Below, piece after piece: positions 16,248-27,706 of a DNA stretch of 35,080 nt. The translations under genes and the position numbers were made by a program. The DNA lies in IMG/VR virus record IMGVR_UViG_3300020417_000015, positions 1 to 35,080 of that record. One strand, 5' to 3'. The DNA is from a virus. Below the pieces are notes generated by a model that saw only the letters and a list, made by a program, of their open reading frames with translations, was not told where the DNA came from and made no database searches. The stretch's first letter is position 1. Each line of letters starts with the position of its first letter.

Positions 16248-16324
16248 TTTTTACCTATCCAATAATTTAATAATAAAGATAATAAAGCGGCAATACCAAA
16301 TATGTCAAAGTACGATAGGTGCAT
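16244..16324 (-). CDS. 26-residue membrane peptide between terL and the 85-residue gene
   Basis: The ATG at 16324 shares its A with the terL stop (TAATG), and its TGA stop overlaps the next start (ATGA). The product, MHLSYFDIFGIAALLSLLLN followed by YWIGKK, is one hydrophobic helix of about 18 residues with a basic C-terminus. Perfect stop/start coupling at both ends argues that it is translated. Possible roles: a tiny holin-like or regulatory membrane peptide, or simply a coupling cistron that carries ribosomes from terL to the next gene. Confidence 0.5.
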   Translation of the reverse strand: MHLSYFDIFGIAALLSLLLNYWIGKK

Positions 16325-18869: not shown

Positions 18870-19479
18870 TGGCTAATTAAATATCTGTGATTTGTGCGAT
18901 TTGTGTGTGATTAGTGCAGATAGCAACAGATAGATATGACAAAGCACACCATAAACAATGGCCGAGTTAATCAACTATTCAGTTTGCAGACAAGCTAATG
19001 ATTGGTTTCACTAAGCGTTTTGTGCTTTGATTATCTAATCTGTTGTCTAAGAACAACCAAGACTTACTGTCTGAGAATCTCTAATCTTGCTTAATCTTGA
19101 TTCTGCAAGGTTTCTACCTAAGAAGAAAGACCAACATAATCTACCAGTTAATTCAACCCTATTCTTTAATGAGATTAAGCAAATCTAGTAGATTCTAGGC
19201 ATTGAGAACTGGTCTATCTGCACCAAAGACATATCTTCTGGGTAGCGTCTAACCAGATTCATCAAAGAGATTCTACTAATCTATTCCACTTAGAATCCAG
19301 AGATTTCCATCAACTCCTGGCTACCCATCATTCTCAAAAAAGTCTAGTGATAGTTAGCTTCTTGATTATTCTGAGGAATATCTAACTGATATGTCCATCA
19401 CACACAGAAATCGCTAATATTGTAATTCTTACTAGACCGTTTGGGAAGTGTTGCCAACACAACAGCTAATATACCATTG
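18870..19479. other. Non-coding control region with TAATCT/GATTCT repeats, probable origin
   Basis: No credible gene in about 600 bp. TAATCT occurs directly at 19036, 19082, 19092, 19137 and 19277, and inverted at 19172. GATTCTA occurs at 19269-19275 with its complement TAGAATC at 19291-19297, forming a 7-bp hairpin with a 15-nt loop. AATCT/AGATT forms a short hairpin at 19182-19194, and GGGTAGC/GCTACCC brackets 19240-19326. Spaced short repeats next to DnaA boxes between divergent operons are what one expects of a phage replication origin. Confidence 0.45.
19005..19016 (+). repeat. Direct repeat GTTTCACTAAGC, copy 1
   Basis: Identical to 19576-19587, 571 bp away. The match continues as purine-TTT. 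The two copies bracket the repeat-rich region and the long hairpin. Confidence 0.7.
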
Positions 19480-19568
19480 GAAAATGCCCGCCTCTTTACC
19501 CTTTTACACCTTTCTCTTAAGGAGGGCGCTCTACAAGAGCGCAGAGAAAGGCGGTAGAGGACATTTTC
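19480..19568 (+). ncRNA. Long hairpin RNA candidate carrying an unpaired perfect Shine-Dalgarno sequence
   Basis: Four nested stems: GAAAATG/CATTTTC (19480-19486 with 19562-19568), CCTCT-tt-ACC/GGTAGAGG (19491-19500 with 19553-19560), CCTTTCTCT/AGAGAAAGG (19509-19517 with 19543-19551) and GCGCTCT/AGAGCGC (19526-19532 with 19536-19542), about 31 pairs in all. Nearly all unpaired bases are on the left strand, including TAAGGAGG (19518-19525), a full complement of the 16S 3' end with no nearby start codon. An intrinsic-terminator-like hairpin follows at 19594. No clear promoter was found. It could also act as DNA, for example a single-strand origin. Confidence 0.5.
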
Positions 19569-19575
19569 AAGAACA

Positions 19576-19587
19576 GTTTCACTAAGC
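19576..19587 (+). repeat. Direct repeat GTTTCACTAAGC, copy 2
   Basis: Second copy of the 12-bp repeat at 19005-19016, between the long hairpin and the terminator-like hairpin. Confidence 0.7.
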
Positions 19588-19589
19588 AT

Positions 19590-19835
19590 TTGCAACGACT
19601 AGAACTCCTTGTCGTTTTAAAGACCAAGTTAAACTACTATTTCTCTATACCATGGCTAAAAACACCAACACTACCCAGCACTAAACGAGGACAAGCCGAC
19701 TTTTCAACCAGAATAGCAGATGTCCGTGAAGTTATCTTTGATAGAGCAGATAACTTCCGCACCAATTACATCTACGATTCTGCTTTCCCTTATTCCATTA
19801 CTATAGAGCGTAATGGCGGTGAAAAGGACCCATAG
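19590..19835 (+). CDS. Small early protein with disrupted or shifted start
   Basis: The open frame ends at a TAG at 19833 and codes for a protein-like C-terminus (TKRGQADFSTRIADVREV, then FDRADNFRTNYIYDSAF). The only in-frame start is a TTG at 19590 that lies at the terminator-like hairpin, without a ribosome site. A better-placed ATG at 19652 is in another frame and stops after 10 codons. Skipping one base, for example in the A5 run at 19658-19662, would give MAKTPTLPSTKRG and a 60-residue protein. Either a +1 shift, an assembly error or a decayed gene would explain this. Function unknown. The exact 5' end is uncertain. Confidence 0.4.
   Translation: MQRLELLVVLKTKLNYYFSIPWLKTPTLPSTKRGQADFSTRIADVREVIFDRADNFRTNYIYDSAFPYSITIERNGGEKDP
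19594..19618 (+). terminator. Intrinsic-terminator-like hairpin after the long hairpin
   Basis: AACGAC (19594-19599) pairs with GTCGTT (19611-19616), with an 11-nt loop and a short T4 tract overlapping the stem. The stem is short, so termination may be partial. Confidence 0.4.
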
Positions 19836-19919
19836 TTTATGTGGTCTTTCGTTTGCCTCATTTAGTTGGGGTAGTGTAAGGGTTTTATACCCATAATATA
19901 GACAAATAGGAGATTAACT

Positions 19920-20534
19920 ATGTCTTTAAAACAACAAGAAGCTCTAGTCGAGCAAATACTAAGTAAAACTGTTCATGAAAATGACCGCTACCGAAAAGGG
20001 AAAGAGGCTGGGATTTACCTTAATGGTAGATTAGCTGGGCAACACTACCCAAACGGACCAGCAAGAAGTTACATATTAGCAGAGATTTCTGCGTGTGACG
20101 CACATATCAGAAGATATACCAAAGGTCAGACTAACCAAACAGCTAACTATCACAGACTTTTAGTTGAGAATGATTGGATAGACCAAGAGGTTGAGGAAAT
20201 GCTCAAAGGATTCCAAGAGGAATCTCTTAGAGAACCTCTATATGATGAATCTGGTAACCCACTACACAGTCCAGAAGTTATGGCTTTGGGCAGAATAGAA
20301 ACCAGTTCTCAATACCTAGAAATCTACCAAGATTTACTAGAACCTCATCTAAAGAAAAGGGTTATCTTAACTGGTGATTATGTTTGGACTTTCTTCTTCG
20401 GAGAAACCTACGCAGAATACAAGACGAAACAAGCTAAGCGATTCGAGAAGTCAGACACTAAGTCTGGTTCTTCTAAGACACCAGCTCAGCTAATCAAAGA
20501 CCAAAAAGCTAAGCTCAACGCAATCAAAGCTTAG
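19920..20534 (+). CDS. Hypothetical early protein, 204 residues
   Basis: Begins at an ATG after AGGAGATTAACT, a good ribosome site. The protein is soluble and charged, with helices around residues 5-35 and 75-105, a middle block with ESLREPLYDESGNPLHSPEV, and a Lys/Ser-rich tail with GSSKTPAQLIKDQKAKL. Base composition is less AT-rich than the genes that follow. An intrinsic terminator lies 12 nt after the stop, so it is a separate transcription unit. I do not recognise a family. As the first full early gene it could be a host-takeover factor, but nothing in the sequence proves that. Confidence 0.75.
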   Translation: MSLKQQEALVEQILSKTVHENDRYRKGKEAGIYLNGRLAGQHYPNGPARSYILAEISACDAHIRRYTKGQTNQTANYHRLLVENDWIDQEVEEMLKGFQEESLREPLYDESGNPLHSPEVMALGRIETSSQYLEIYQDLLEPHLKKRVILTGDYVWTFFFGETYAEYKTKQAKRFEKSDTKSGSSKTPAQLIKDQKAKLNAIKA

Positions 20535-20545
20535 TCTAGCAAACT

Positions 20546-20575
20546 GAATAGCCGATTAACTTCGGCTATTCTTTT
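20546..20575 (+). terminator. Intrinsic terminator after the 204-residue gene
   Basis: A perfect 10-bp stem GAATAGCCGA/TCGGCTATTC with a 6-nt loop is followed by TTTT. It ends the first early transcription unit. Confidence 0.85.
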
Positions 20576-20581
20576 GTGTGT

Positions 20582-20610
20582 TTGTCATTTAGAAATGGAA
20601 AAAGCATTAT
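20582..20610 (+). promoter_or_regulatory. Sigma-70-type promoter of the second early unit
   Basis: TTGTCA (20582-20587, 5 of 6) and CATTAT (20605-20610, 4 of 6) are spaced 17 bp. Start would fall near 20618, at the beginning of a structured leader. It lies directly after the previous terminator. Confidence 0.5.
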
Positions 20611-20617
20611 GATTTTC

Positions 20618-20755
20618 TGTTTCTATCTGCTGTAAATATGAGGGAACTTGGCTAATCGCCAGAGAGAACGCTTCGAGCTACTCATTACAGCACAATGCTA
20701 CAGGAGGAAGTAGTCATCTCCCCAGATATACTAAATCCTGTAGCTAATTTTTTTT
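20618..20755 (+). ncRNA. Structured leader or small RNA ending in an intrinsic terminator
   Basis: A closing stem TGCTGTA/TACAGCA (20628-20634 with 20686-20692) continues as ATGAG/CTCAT (20638-20642 with 20681-20685) and encloses two hairpins, TGGC-TAATC-GCCA and GCT-TCG-AGC, a three-way junction. A terminator follows (see 20697-20755). TACAG and CTGTA each occur twice, once in the closing stem and once in the terminator stem, so the strands could exchange. With the promoter upstream this is either a terminated small RNA of about 135 nt or a riboswitch/attenuator-like leader for the operon starting at 20779. Confidence 0.55.
20697..20755 (+). terminator. Intrinsic terminator before the ArdC operon
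   Basis: GCTACAGGA (20697-20705) pairs perfectly with TCCTGTAGC (20736-20744) over a 30-nt loop, followed by TAA and eight T. It lies only 23 nt before the next start codon, an attenuator-like position. Confidence 0.75.
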
Positions 20756-20778
20756 AAAAAGAGGATAAGGAGAAACTA

Positions 20779-21000
20779 ATGGCAATAGAAAAATTTAATG
20801 TATCATTTACTTTAGAAAGAGATAATTCAAATGATGAAGATGAAACATGGGTTGATGAAGAACACATCGCTAGTGAAATCAAATCATGGCTTGAAGATAT
20901 AGATTATATAGTAACTGATATTAAAATTAACAACACTAACTTTATTAAAGTAGACTGGAAAGTAAGTTATGATCTTGTAAAGGAGGACACAAATGTCTAA
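20779..21000 (+). CDS. Small acidic early protein
   Basis: 73 residues with a strong ribosome site (AAGGAG) and an excess of Asp/Glu (NSNDEDETWVDEEHIASEI). The pattern of strand, helix (EIKSWLEDI) and strands (VTDIKINNTNFIKVDWKV) suggests a compact alpha/beta fold. It overlaps the start of the ArdC-like gene by 8 nt and is the first gene behind the terminator-leader. Acidic small proteins next to antirestriction genes can be DNA mimics, but I have no direct evidence for that. Confidence 0.65.
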   Translation: MAIEKFNVSFTLERDNSNDEDETWVDEEHIASEIKSWLEDIDYIVTDIKINNTNFIKVDWKVSYDLVKEDTNV

Positions 21001-22018
21001 AACAAAAAAAGTTGCAGAGTTAAACAAGCATAAACTCAATGAAAAATTTTTAACAATACTTGATGACGCTGATAAGATTGAGGGATCATGGCATAAGCCA
21101 TGGCAATCACAGCTTACATCACAATACAGAGCAAGTACTATTGATGTTAATAAAAAGGATAACAAACCAGAATCTTATAGTGGTTTGAATCAAATACTTA
21201 TGTCATTAGTATCAGACTTATATGGATATAAGTCTAAAGTATGGGGTACATACAAGACATGGGAAAAGATGGGGTATACACCAAGAGGTGCTAGTCCAGT
21301 AGGTATTGTAAGGCCAATCTATAAATATAATGCTGAAGCTGGTAAAGAAATTATATCACGGTGGACAAGTACACCTGGCTTTAATGGAGATCAAGTAGAA
21401 CCAATAGTAATTCGTGATGTAAAAGTTGTGCCAGATTATACAGACTCTGACTATATAGATATGGGTAACACTAAGAAAGATAACTTAGTTAATATGACTG
21501 AAGAATGTGAGCGTCTGGTTTCTGACTTTATGCAGAAGCAAGGCATTAAGTTAAAAGAAAAAGGTAGCCAAGCATACTATAGTCCAATAGCAGATATGAT
21601 ATGTATGCCAGAAAAATGGAGATTCCAAAAAACAATAGACGGATTATCACCAACAGATATGTATGTAATTGTTATGTTACATGAGTGTGGTCATGCTACT
21701 GGTGCAGCACATAGATTAGATAGAGGTTTAGAACTTGGAGCTGTTGATAAAGAAAGCTACGCTAAAGAAGAACTAATAGCTGAGATGTGTAGCATTATGG
21801 TATCTTATGAATTAGGTATAGTATCACAACCACAACCTAATCATTTGCAATACATTAAGTCATGGAAGAAAGCTATCAAAGATGATACTAACTACCTGAC
21901 TCATTGTATTAATCAAGCAAGCGCAGCATCAAAATGGATTCTGGAAAATAAAACACCTAAACCTATGAAAGAGGTGCTTAAGAAATCATTTGATAAAGTA
22001 TTAAAACACATAGATTAA
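20993..22018 (+). CDS. ArdC-like antirestriction protein (ssDNA-binding domain plus metallopeptidase)
   Basis: 341 residues with two domains. The N-terminal part (about 15-115) follows the ArdC_N pattern: WHKPWQSQ near 33-40, then YSGLNQILM, VWGTYKTWEKMG and a conserved basic strand (GIVRPIY). The C-terminal part is a zincin-like (MPTase-PolyVal-type) domain with HECGH at 230-234, followed by ATGAAHRLDR and YAKEELIAEM; His230, His234 and a downstream Glu (about 260-264) would bind zinc. ArdC proteins protect incoming DNA from type I/II restriction. AGGAGG precedes the ATG. Early placement fits protection on entry. A peptidoglycan role is unlikely given the ArdC N-domain. Confidence 0.8.
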   Translation: MSKTKKVAELNKHKLNEKFLTILDDADKIEGSWHKPWQSQLTSQYRASTIDVNKKDNKPESYSGLNQILMSLVSDLYGYKSKVWGTYKTWEKMGYTPRGASPVGIVRPIYKYNAEAGKEIISRWTSTPGFNGDQVEPIVIRDVKVVPDYTDSDYIDMGNTKKDNLVNMTEECERLVSDFMQKQGIKLKEKGSQAYYSPIADMICMPEKWRFQKTIDGLSPTDMYVIVMLHECGHATGAAHRLDRGLELGAVDKESYAKEELIAEMCSIMVSYELGIVSQPQPNHLQYIKSWKKAIKDDTNYLTHCINQASAASKWILENKTPKPMKEVLKKSFDKVLKHID

Positions 22019-22074: not shown

Positions 22075-22377
22075 ATGACTAAAGAATTACCTGATATAGA
22101 CAAGGCTTTTCATACTAATATGCGCAGTCATATTATAAAAGGTATGAAATTAAAACATCCAGATGTAGAGTTTACATTAAATGAGTTTGATGAAAATTTT
22201 ATAACTGGAATCACTAAGCAAGTTCAAGTGTATGCAAAATCACATGACCTTACTGATGACCAACAAAAATTTATGATAACCAAAACATTACAAAATGCAA
22301 TAGATGAGCTTATATCTTACAATATGACACAAGCATTTGGTTCTGACATGGAGGTAGCAGATGGCGATACCGACTGA
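22075..22377 (+). CDS. Hypothetical protein, 100 residues
   Basis: Mostly helical and charged, with an acidic C-terminus (SDMEVADGDTD). An AAGGAG site lies 9 nt upstream of the ATG. It overlaps the winged-helix gene by 17 nt, so the two are probably co-translated. Family not recognised. It could be a partner of the regulator, given the overlap alone. Confidence 0.65.
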   Translation: MTKELPDIDKAFHTNMRSHIIKGMKLKHPDVEFTLNEFDENFITGITKQVQVYAKSHDLTDDQQKFMITKTLQNAIDELISYNMTQAFGSDMEVADGDTD

Positions 22378-22726
22378 TATAAATATAATTAAATTTCCTA
22401 CACCTACAAGGAAGAACGATCCATCTACATCTAAGAATACATGGACCAACACTAAAGACTATAAGATACTACATGCTTTAACTAAAAGTTTAAATACTGG
22501 TGGTACATTCTCAGAGATAGCAAAGTATACTGGTATTAAAGAAGTATCAATAAGCTCCAGGCTTAAAGCATTTAGAGATAAGGGATGGGTATACATTAAG
22601 TTTGATGAACATGGTAACCCAGATAAAAGGAAAAGTATTACAAGTAATTGTAATAACACTATACATTTCCTTAGTACTAAGGGTTTAGAATTAGTTAGAA
22701 GCGAGGAGGACAATGCAACACAGTAG
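22361..22726 (+). CDS. Winged-helix DNA-binding regulator
   Basis: 121 residues. After a polar N-terminal 30, the pattern is helix (TKDYKILHALTKSLN), helix-turn-helix (GTFSEIAKYTGIKEVSISSRLKAFRDKGW, quoted as FSEIAKYTGI and VSISSRLKAF), then a wing with basic residues (YIKFDEHGNPDKRKS) and a last strand/helix (IHFLSTKGLELV). This is the MarR/ArsR-like winged-helix layout. A 14-bp palindrome 1.4 kb downstream (23751-23764) is a candidate operator for this or the XRE regulator. Overlaps with both neighbours by 14-17 nt. Confidence 0.7.
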   Translation: MAIPTDINIIKFPTPTRKNDPSTSKNTWTNTKDYKILHALTKSLNTGGTFSEIAKYTGIKEVSISSRLKAFRDKGWVYIKFDEHGNPDKRKSITSNCNNTIHFLSTKGLELVRSEEDNATQ

Positions 22727-24452: not shown

Positions 24453-24740
24453 ATGGCAGATAAGAATGAATGGATAGCATCAAGGTCTAATCGTGTAGGG
24501 TATAAACCTACATGGTATTGGGAACTGATATATCAATTCAAACTGAGGAGAGAGAGTTTGAATATATCTCAATTAGAATTGGATCAACGCATGGGTAATG
24601 CTGATGGGTTGGTAGGTAAATGGGAATGTGGTATTAGAAGTCCAGGTGCTTTCAATTTAACTTCATGGGCTATGGCCCTTGACTGCGATATTAAATTGGA
24701 GACTACTAATGAAAGTATACAAACAGAAAGACCTCATTAA
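24453..24740 (+). CDS. XRE/Cro-CI-type helix-turn-helix regulator, probably leaderless
   Basis: 95 residues. The HTH is at about 28-62: FKLRRESLNISQLELDQRMG, then ADGLVGKWECGIRSPGAFNL, the usual LR---LSQ-ELA---G-----V--WE-G-R-P pattern. The C-terminal part (WAMALDCDIKLE) completes the domain. No Shine-Dalgarno site precedes the ATG, but an extended -10 promoter ends 3 nt before it, as for the lambda cI gene transcribed from PRM. It overlaps the O-like gene by 32 nt, so it may control replication functions. Confidence 0.7.
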   Translation: MADKNEWIASRSNRVGYKPTWYWELIYQFKLRRESLNISQLELDQRMGNADGLVGKWECGIRSPGAFNLTSWAMALDCDIKLETTNESIQTERPH

Positions 24741-25697: not shown

Positions 25698-25896
25698 ATT
25701 TACTGATTGGGTTATTGAACAACAAGAAGAAGCTGATATAGAAAGCTACAAGAAACACTTTAAGCAATATGCTAAAGAGAATCCTGATGCTGAGTATGAT
25801 GAGGTCCATGAATACGCAGAAGAACAAGTATATCGTGAAAAAGATTTTTATGAACCTGATCCTGAAAGTGATGTGAGGCCAGAAGATGTCAATTAA
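25687..25896 (+). CDS. 69-residue strongly acidic protein
   Basis: ATG with GGAGG 7 nt upstream. Rich in Asp/Glu/Tyr (EYDEVHEYAEEQVYREKDFYE). Predicted helices with an acidic tail. It overlaps the exonuclease start by 11 nt; both genes begin with the same residues MSIK. Acid-rich partners of recombination nucleases exist (DNA-mimic inhibitors of RecBCD such as lambda Gam are larger), so an anti-nuclease role is a guess only. Confidence 0.6.
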   Translation: MSIKFTDWVIEQQEEADIESYKKHFKQYAKENPDAEYDEVHEYAEEQVYREKDFYEPDPESDVRPEDVN

Positions 25897-26881
25897 AATA
25901 TATAAAAGTGTAGAATACTCTGGAACAAGAGAAGAATACTATCAGGATAAGATAAGTAGTAGTGATGCAAGAGCAATAGCTAGTGGTGACTACTATGATT
26001 TAGAAAAACTTTGGGAACAAAAAATAAATCTTAGCAAAGATGATTTGTCTAATGTATTCCCTGTTCAATTAGGATTAGCTACTGAGGAGTTTCATACAAG
26101 TTGGCTTAACAAAGAGCTAACAAGAAACAATGTAGTTGGTTACGGACATGAACATAACTTAATGTATGAACAAGCACATTGTGTTATTGAATCTGATAGT
26201 ACATCTCATCCATTTATATTAGCATCTACTATTGACATAGCTTATTCAAATGAACCTATTAATCATCCGAATGATAATATAAAAAGTATTAGTTTAGTAG
26301 AACTTAAACATACTGGAGAATACAGTAACTTAGATAAAGTAATTGAGAACTACTATCCACAATTACAGCATCACATGTATGTCTGGGGTACACATGAGAT
26401 AATGATCTCAGCTATCTTTGGAAACAAAAGACAACAGCATGACATAGTTAAAAGAGATAATACCTTTCTTGCAGAATATATGGAAAGAGCTATGGAATTA
26501 GGAAGATTAATCCATGACTATTGGCATGACGATGCAAGATTCTATGAAGATGGAGAGAACTCAACAAGAGATGAATGGTGGAATGTATCACAAGAATTAG
26601 ATTGGGTTACTGGTATACCAATAGAAAAAGATATTGTATGTGCAAGCGGTAAGGTGTATAATCTTAACGAATGTGCAGATTGGAATTGGGCTAAAGAATT
26701 TATTGATAAAGCAATAGAAACTTCAGTAAGCAATACTGGATTCAGTAAGTCTAAAGAGGAGAATGAACACAATAAGAATCACCTCAAGAAACTGATACCA
26801 GATGATGCCAAGTCTGTAACATACAACGGTATTACTGCCAGCCGAAATAAAAATGGCATAGTGTCTATCAGAATTAAATAG
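25886..26881 (+). CDS. YqaJ/lambda-exonuclease-like recombination nuclease
   Basis: 331 residues with a PD-(D/E)xK core: PVQLGLATEEFHTSWL (about 59-74, the G---E helix), HPFILASTIDIAY (Asp117), LVELKHTG (Glu139-x-Lys141) and YYPQLQHHMYVWG (Gln159/Gln161, the family's motif III). This is the pattern of 5'-3' exonucleases of the lambda Exo/YqaJ type that make 3' overhangs for annealing. It is followed by an annealing-protein candidate and SSB, a complete Red-like set. The C-terminal 60 residues are Lys/Asn-rich with an amphipathic helix. Confidence 0.8.
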   Translation: MSIKIYKSVEYSGTREEYYQDKISSSDARAIASGDYYDLEKLWEQKINLSKDDLSNVFPVQLGLATEEFHTSWLNKELTRNNVVGYGHEHNLMYEQAHCVIESDSTSHPFILASTIDIAYSNEPINHPNDNIKSISLVELKHTGEYSNLDKVIENYYPQLQHHMYVWGTHEIMISAIFGNKRQQHDIVKRDNTFLAEYMERAMELGRLIHDYWHDDARFYEDGENSTRDEWWNVSQELDWVTGIPIEKDIVCASGKVYNLNECADWNWAKEFIDKAIETSVSNTGFSKSKEENEHNKNHLKKLIPDDAKSVTYNGITASRNKNGIVSIRIK

Positions 26882-27289: not shown

Positions 27290-27706
27290 ATGTCAGGAAG
27301 TTTAAATAAAGTAATGCTCATAGGTAGACTAGGAGCGGACCCAGAGATCAGAGATACAAAGACAGGAGGGAGATTCGCAACCTTTAGTCTTGCAACATCT
27401 GAACGATGGAAAGACAAGAGCGGAGATCAACAGGAAAGAACCGAATGGAATAGAGTAGTAGTATTCCAAGAGGGATTGATTCCTGTTATAGAACAATATG
27501 TTACGAAAGGTAGTAATGTATTTGTTGAGGGTAAATTGCAGACAAGAAAGTATGAGGACAAAGACGGAGTAGAAAAATATACTACCGAAGTTGTACTTCA
27601 AGGATTCAATTCTACATTTACCATGCTAGATTCTAAATCATCAGAGTCAGGAGCGAAGCCCACAACAAGCGGAGCGATTGACGATGATGATGGTATACCA
27701 TTTTAA
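27290..27706 (+). CDS. ssb: Single-stranded DNA-binding protein
   Basis: 138 residues with a bacterial-type OB fold: LNKVMLIGRLGADPEIR, FATFSLATSERW, the TEWNRVVVF strand, GSNVFVEGKLQTRKYED and YTTEVVLQGF. The C-terminus ends DDDDGIPF, the acidic tip that recruits host replication and repair proteins. A Ser/Thr linker separates it from the fold. The start follows the preceding TAA without a gap, with GGAGG upstream. It would coat ssDNA in replication and recombination. Confidence 0.95.
   Translation: MSGSLNKVMLIGRLGADPEIRDTKTGGRFATFSLATSERWKDKSGDQQERTEWNRVVVFQEGLIPVIEQYVTKGSNVFVEGKLQTRKYEDKDGVEKYTTEVVLQGFNSTFTMLDSKSSESGAKPTTSGAIDDDDGIPF

Follow-up and report, generated by a model that had tools for sequence, protein, structure and literature searches.

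The putRNA of phage HK022 is about 70 nt long, folds into two stem-loops, and is located just after the early promoter and before the terminators that precede the early genes (PMC9378689). The window, i.e. the complete IMG/VR virus record of 35,080 nt that was analysed, contains a three-way-junction RNA (motif A) that resembles the put elements of this lambdoid phage (putL and putR) in that it, too, would be a cis-acting RNA of about 70 nt in an early leader, 3' of a promoter and 5' of terminators. Put consists of two stem-loops, whereas motif A forms a three-way junction, has conserved joining strands of its own, and is present in one copy per genome; two adjacent stem-loops were not found in the folds from the window and the contigs L005, L010, and L066. 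By analogy, HK022 put would be the functionally nearest system. Because its two-stem-loop fold differs from that of motif A, membership is not claimed.

The leader also shares features with RNAs that control a terminator, such as riboswitches and protein-binding attenuators: a compact, conserved junction lies 5' of an intrinsic terminator abutting a Shine-Dalgarno sequence, and the upstream element (motif A or another element, B) is exchanged before the same terminator type. Unlike these RNAs, motif A matches no Rfam family, shows no predicted strand exchange, and precedes no metabolite gene. A structured, conserved domain 5' of a gene-preceding intrinsic terminator was found in the ArdC phages and not in L066; mutually exclusive pairing of a terminator and an antiterminator was not found. 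Cuckoo/CcsR-type small RNAs of alphaproteobacteria combine a C-rich-loop hairpin with an intrinsic terminator, and both are seen in the leader as well. Unlike these small RNAs, the leader RNA is located in cis, immediately 5' of a ribosome-binding site, and contains a three-way junction.

According to its genes for a head-tail adaptor, a tail tubular protein, and a terminase, the window stems from a podovirus. Among cultured phages, the nearest relative found was Pelagibacter phage EXVC031P Hodr, with 65% identity in the adaptor. The features of the leader and of the operon that follows it are:

20546–20571, + strand: T1, terminator-like hairpin of the upstream gene, 10 bp with a T-rich tail
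20582–20610, + strand: candidate sigma-70 promoter TTGTCA-17-CATTAT (TTGTCA, 20582–20587; CATTAT, 20605–20610)
20628–20692, + strand: motif A, three-way-junction RNA of 65 nt, deduced from fold, covariation, and covariance model
20628–20634/20686–20692, + strand: P1a of motif A
20635–20637, + strand: AAU bulge of motif A
20638–20642/20681–20685, + strand: P1b of motif A
20643–20648, + strand: joining strand J12, GGAACU, invariant across all four lineages
20648–20652/20658–20662, + strand: P2 of motif A
20662–20669, + strand: joining strand J23, GAGAGAAC, GASAGAAC over the lineages and nearly invariant
20670–20672/20676–20678, + strand: P3 of motif A
20697–20755, + strand: leader terminator T2, outer stem GCTACAGGA/TCCTGTAGC, inner CCCC-loop hairpin, T8
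20767–20772, + strand: Shine-Dalgarno sequence AAGGAG of the first downstream gene, just 3' of the U-tract
20779–21000, + strand: first open reading frame of the operon (73 aa), from a conserved family of unknown function
20993–22018, + strand: ArdC-type anti-restriction protein (ArdcN + MPTase-PolyVal)
25886–26881, + strand: RecE-like recombination exonuclease, same operon as ArdC
27290–27706, + strand: single-strand DNA-binding protein (SSB), same operon as ArdC

The upstream gene ends at 20534, just 5' of T1. The outer stem of T2 comprises 9 bp (20697–20705/20736–20744) and is followed by UAA and by T8 at 20748–20755; the U-tract ends 23 nt 5' of the ATG at 20779. The sequence and the coordinates of promoter, junction, and terminator that an earlier note on this DNA had given, including the 9 bp, the T8, and the distance of 23 nt, are thus correct. 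The ArdC operon (+ strand, from 20779) also contains two weak helix-turn-helix matches (22361–22726 and 24453–24740). A scan for further strong intrinsic terminators in the operon found none from 20757 to about 27818.

The surroundings of the leader display further structures. Between the divergent operons lies an inverted repeat of 74% identity (window 18936–19690 and 19856–20588, about 750 bp per arm), the right arm of which ends at the -35 box of the leader. Relatives have shorter hairpins in the same region (L029 10800–11161, L003 1177–1543, L005 398–764, L016 2303–2394). The leftward structural operon has a perfect sigma-70 promoter (TTGACA-18-TATAAT, window 18855–18826, - strand), and another match of 11/12 lies at 16308–16279. 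In Hodr (L036 12200–12370), a hairpin of about 170 nt was recognized by eye 5' of gene 022; its outer arm includes the Shine-Dalgarno sequence.

Homologues were collected from ArdC relatives and by sequence-pattern scans of viral contigs. Motif A was found in nine IMG/VR records besides the window, one of which (L002/L019/L035) is essentially the same phage as the window. These metagenomic contigs represent few lineages, namely four: the window type (with L012), L009, the L005 type (L005, L010, L003, L011, L034), and L066. Each genome contains one copy, on the same strand as the downstream gene. The RNA folds as a three-way junction in the window, L005, L010, and L066, and the order P1a, bulge, P1b, GGAACU, P2, GASAGAAC, P3, UA is common to all four lineages. 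The bulge is AAU in three lineages and U in the L005 type; P3 is GCU/AGC, and in L066 GU and C are inserted. The joining strands GGAACU, GASAGAAC, and UA are nearly invariant; in all, the motif has about 16 nearly invariant unpaired positions.

The helices were compared at the level of single base pairs, in a structural alignment made by hand. P1a is almost wholly rebuilt between lineages (UGCUGUA/UACAGCA; AGCUGUA/UACAGCU; CUCGUA or CUCAUA/UAUGAG; GACGGUG/CACCGUC), P1b shows exchanges of A-U with C-G and of A-U with G-C, and P2 shows exchanges of G-C with A-U. Paired substitutions, for which the earlier note had suggested a search, are present in P1a, P1b, and P2. In a model-fitted alignment, which leans towards the model and gives P1a a wrong register in the L005 type, double-sided changes occur at 8 of 18 pairs compared to 3.4 in shuffles (none of 500 shuffles reached this number), and the actual pairing is far superior to every slid register. 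A covariance model trained without L066 assigns this contig a score of 61.4 bits (E about 2e-16). L066 is an unrelated podovirus, whose terminase, portal, and head protein belong to other families; the portal is 38–42% identical to the nearest phage records, which are mostly KPP25-like. The double-sided pairs and this leave-one-out match bear out the three-way-junction fold that had been proposed, and sequence comparison shows motif A to be a real conserved, covarying RNA element common to unrelated marine phages.

The predicted folding energy of the leader (20618–20760) is -38.2 kcal/mol (z -3.0), a value that none of 200 shuffles reached. Folded separately, the T2 hairpin reaches a z value of -4.2 and the junction one of only -2.2; the case for the junction rests therefore on conservation. 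The T2 hairpin is well formed, terminator-like, and followed by U8; the spacer of 2–3 nt between stem and U-tract may weaken it. The promoter at 20582–20610 is plausible: hexamers and spacer of the sigma-70 type that the earlier note had named are present, and both hexamers are unchanged in L012. The number of matches is at chance level, however, as six sites with the same score (9/12) were found and 5.9 are expected.

Rfam 15 gave no gathering-level match in the window, and none was convincing over the motif in the window, L001, L003, L006, L009, and L066 (E up to 5–10). Together with the covarying fold and a terminator that abuts the ribosome-binding site, this agrees with the previous description of an attenuator-like leader of no known class. 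The covariance model detected no copy in Hodr, HTVC011P, G004, G005, G008, and G009, blastn revealed none in cultured relatives among phage records, and 64 further ArdC loci lacked the motif as well. Scanning 84,980 prokaryote species genomes yielded 11 matches, most of them not closely inspected and none titled marine alphaproteobacterium, which is weak evidence that motif A is absent from hosts. Most relaxed-pattern matches (L028, L030, L032, L033, L038–L063, and the rest of L064–L164, L170–L192, L199, and L200) were rejected upon inspection, being coding-like and lacking P1 complementarity; L183, L199, and L200 were compared with open reading frames. The sole survivor was L066. The abstracts found in a literature search on pelagiphages and riboswitches describe no such element.

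Five leader types precede the same 73-aa gene, each directly 3' of a T1-like hairpin:

Window and L012: T1, promoter-like sequence, motif A, T2
L005 type: T1, motif A, T2
L009: T1, AT-rich promoter-like stretch, motif A, element B with terminator
L006: T1, element B, T2 of the L005 type
L016, L008, and L023: T1, the same stretch as in L009, then the gene, with neither A, B, nor terminator

Within these five types from ArdC phages, a terminator on the side of the start codon is present exactly when A or B is present. In ArdC phages with motif A, 12–23 nt separate the U-tract from the ATG, and the end of the searched motif core lies at a similar distance from the ATG in all of them (96–108 nt). 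In the L005 type, the stretch from T1 to motif A leaves no space for a promoter; its RNA must therefore come from read-through of T1. The transcribed leader of L012 is identical to that of the window, yet it is followed by a 179-aa gene and the ArdC is of another type; blastn similarity falls off right after the U-tract. The 179-aa gene (L012 543–1082) lies 3' of the leader terminator and 5' of the 73-aa gene and has its own AAGGAG directly after the U-tract. As the leader was kept while the next gene and ArdC differ, it appears to be a movable, generic control unit and not a gene-specific operator. Its transcribed part contains 0 changes compared to 6 in the 375 nt just upstream, which are too few to prove selection on the leader. 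The 75-aa gene that follows motif A in L066 is not separated from it by a terminator, so that the basic activity of the motif would not need one; a terminator and further same-strand genes lie 3' of the 75-aa gene. It can be inferred that A, B, and the terminator act like modules that can be exchanged.

Element B, a second conserved element of the leaders that either replaces or follows motif A, occurs at L006 106–162 and L009 2842–2912 (UAGUCAUCCCCA...GUUGGARCGACUUUAAAAGUG); its outer stem is rebuilt, and a pseudoknot CCAACUG/CAGUUGG is possible in L009. The inner-hairpin sequence ATCTCCCCA of T2 is common to the window and the L005 type although the stems differ. Each leader with A or B contains AUC(U)CCCCA (window 20716–20724; L005, L006, L009) in differing stems, and GGGA of J12/P1b is a possible pairing partner of this sequence. 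For J12/P1b and the C-rich element farther 3', a GGGA:UCCC contact is possible in the three ArdC-phage lineages and absent in L066. P1 meets competition from a GGGGA:UCCCC contact in the L005 intermediate, a contact that L066 does not carry. The early region contains only one + strand copy of UCCCCA, which does not suggest a general phage site. In L066 (2150–2440), recurring terminator-like hairpins (CCATAGCTATCCAGCTATGG) separate small genes, and TATAAATATAAGGAG comes after each hairpin; this arrangement resembles late-promoter cassettes.

The most likely reading, with a probability of roughly 0.48, is that the region 20582–20778 is a cis-acting 5' leader in which motif A governs read-through of T2 by binding and not by strand exchange. 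RNA synthesis would begin near 20617, and the nascent RNA would fold first into motif A and then into the intrinsic terminator T2. As the space from T2 to the gene is too short for a promoter and no other strong terminator follows before about 27818, expression of the ArdC/replication operon implies read-through of T2, which would be regulated or partial. Motif A in the nascent RNA would set this read-through by binding something via its conserved joining strands, the putative signature of a binding site in the aligned sequences. Candidates are a phage or host protein or RNA polymerase itself; a small molecule is less likely. The missing terminator before the gene in L066 speaks against terminator control as the sole context of the motif.

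Strand exchange had been suggested previously, as the words TACAG and CTGTA occur in both P1 and the terminator and could swap partners; in L010, moreover, the sequence of the 5' strand of P1 could pair over about 9 bp with the 5' arm of the terminator. In the window only 5 bp are available, and junction and terminator are held together in the best fold. For the intermediate that exists before the 3' arm of the terminator is made, the expected number of pairs between these strands is 0.02 for the window, 0.14 for L005, and 0.26 for L010, and the loss of P1 and terminator costs about 29–34 kcal/mol. Energies and pair probabilities thus speak against the partner swap, and an attenuator of this kind is hardly credible. 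The leader might alternatively encode a stand-alone small RNA, a transcript of about 140 nt from the promoter at 20582–20610 to T2, with the junction as a stabilizing or protein-binding domain and a C-rich loop (AUCUCCCCA) that pairs with Shine-Dalgarno-like targets. The candidate promoter, the strong hairpin with U8, the bracketing of the unit by T1 and T2 in every leader type with A or B, and a C-rich loop that is kept while its stem changes are consistent with this idea. It is nevertheless unlikely, because the U-tract abuts the Shine-Dalgarno sequence of a co-directional operon with no space for another promoter, the L005-type phages have no promoter between T1 and the fold, and no defined small RNA would result in L066, where no terminator follows the fold.

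Two further explanations leave the RNA in cis. Like HK022 putL, motif A alone, without a dedicated factor, could bind the elongating RNA polymerase, which would then pass T2. Size class and location match putRNA (PMC9378689), the motif is portable across unrelated phages, and in L066 there is likewise a downstream terminator followed by same-strand genes. The differing folds, the single copy per genome compared to two in HK022, and the fact that only one strong terminator has to be passed in most of the window operon make this quite improbable. Similarly, a compact junction with so many nearly invariant unpaired positions, which lies within transcribed regions without a local promoter in the L005 type and in L066, might be a ribozyme-like or nuclease-recognized element that trims the 5' end of the mRNA. 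Such processing is very doubtful, as no Rfam ribozyme family matches and the co-occurrence with a terminator is left unexplained.

Regulatory RNA is almost uncharted in phages of the most abundant ocean bacteria. Tentatively, motif A may represent a new class of phage RNA, namely a portable junction, exchangeable with element B, that takes hold of RNA polymerase or a regulatory protein and thereby lets transcription continue past operon-guarding terminators in unrelated marine phages. It is compact, strongly covarying, and without a known class, can be tested directly in vitro, and can serve as the seed for a new RNA family. If termination is indeed controlled without strand exchange, motif A would be one of the very few RNAs acting on the transcription complex.
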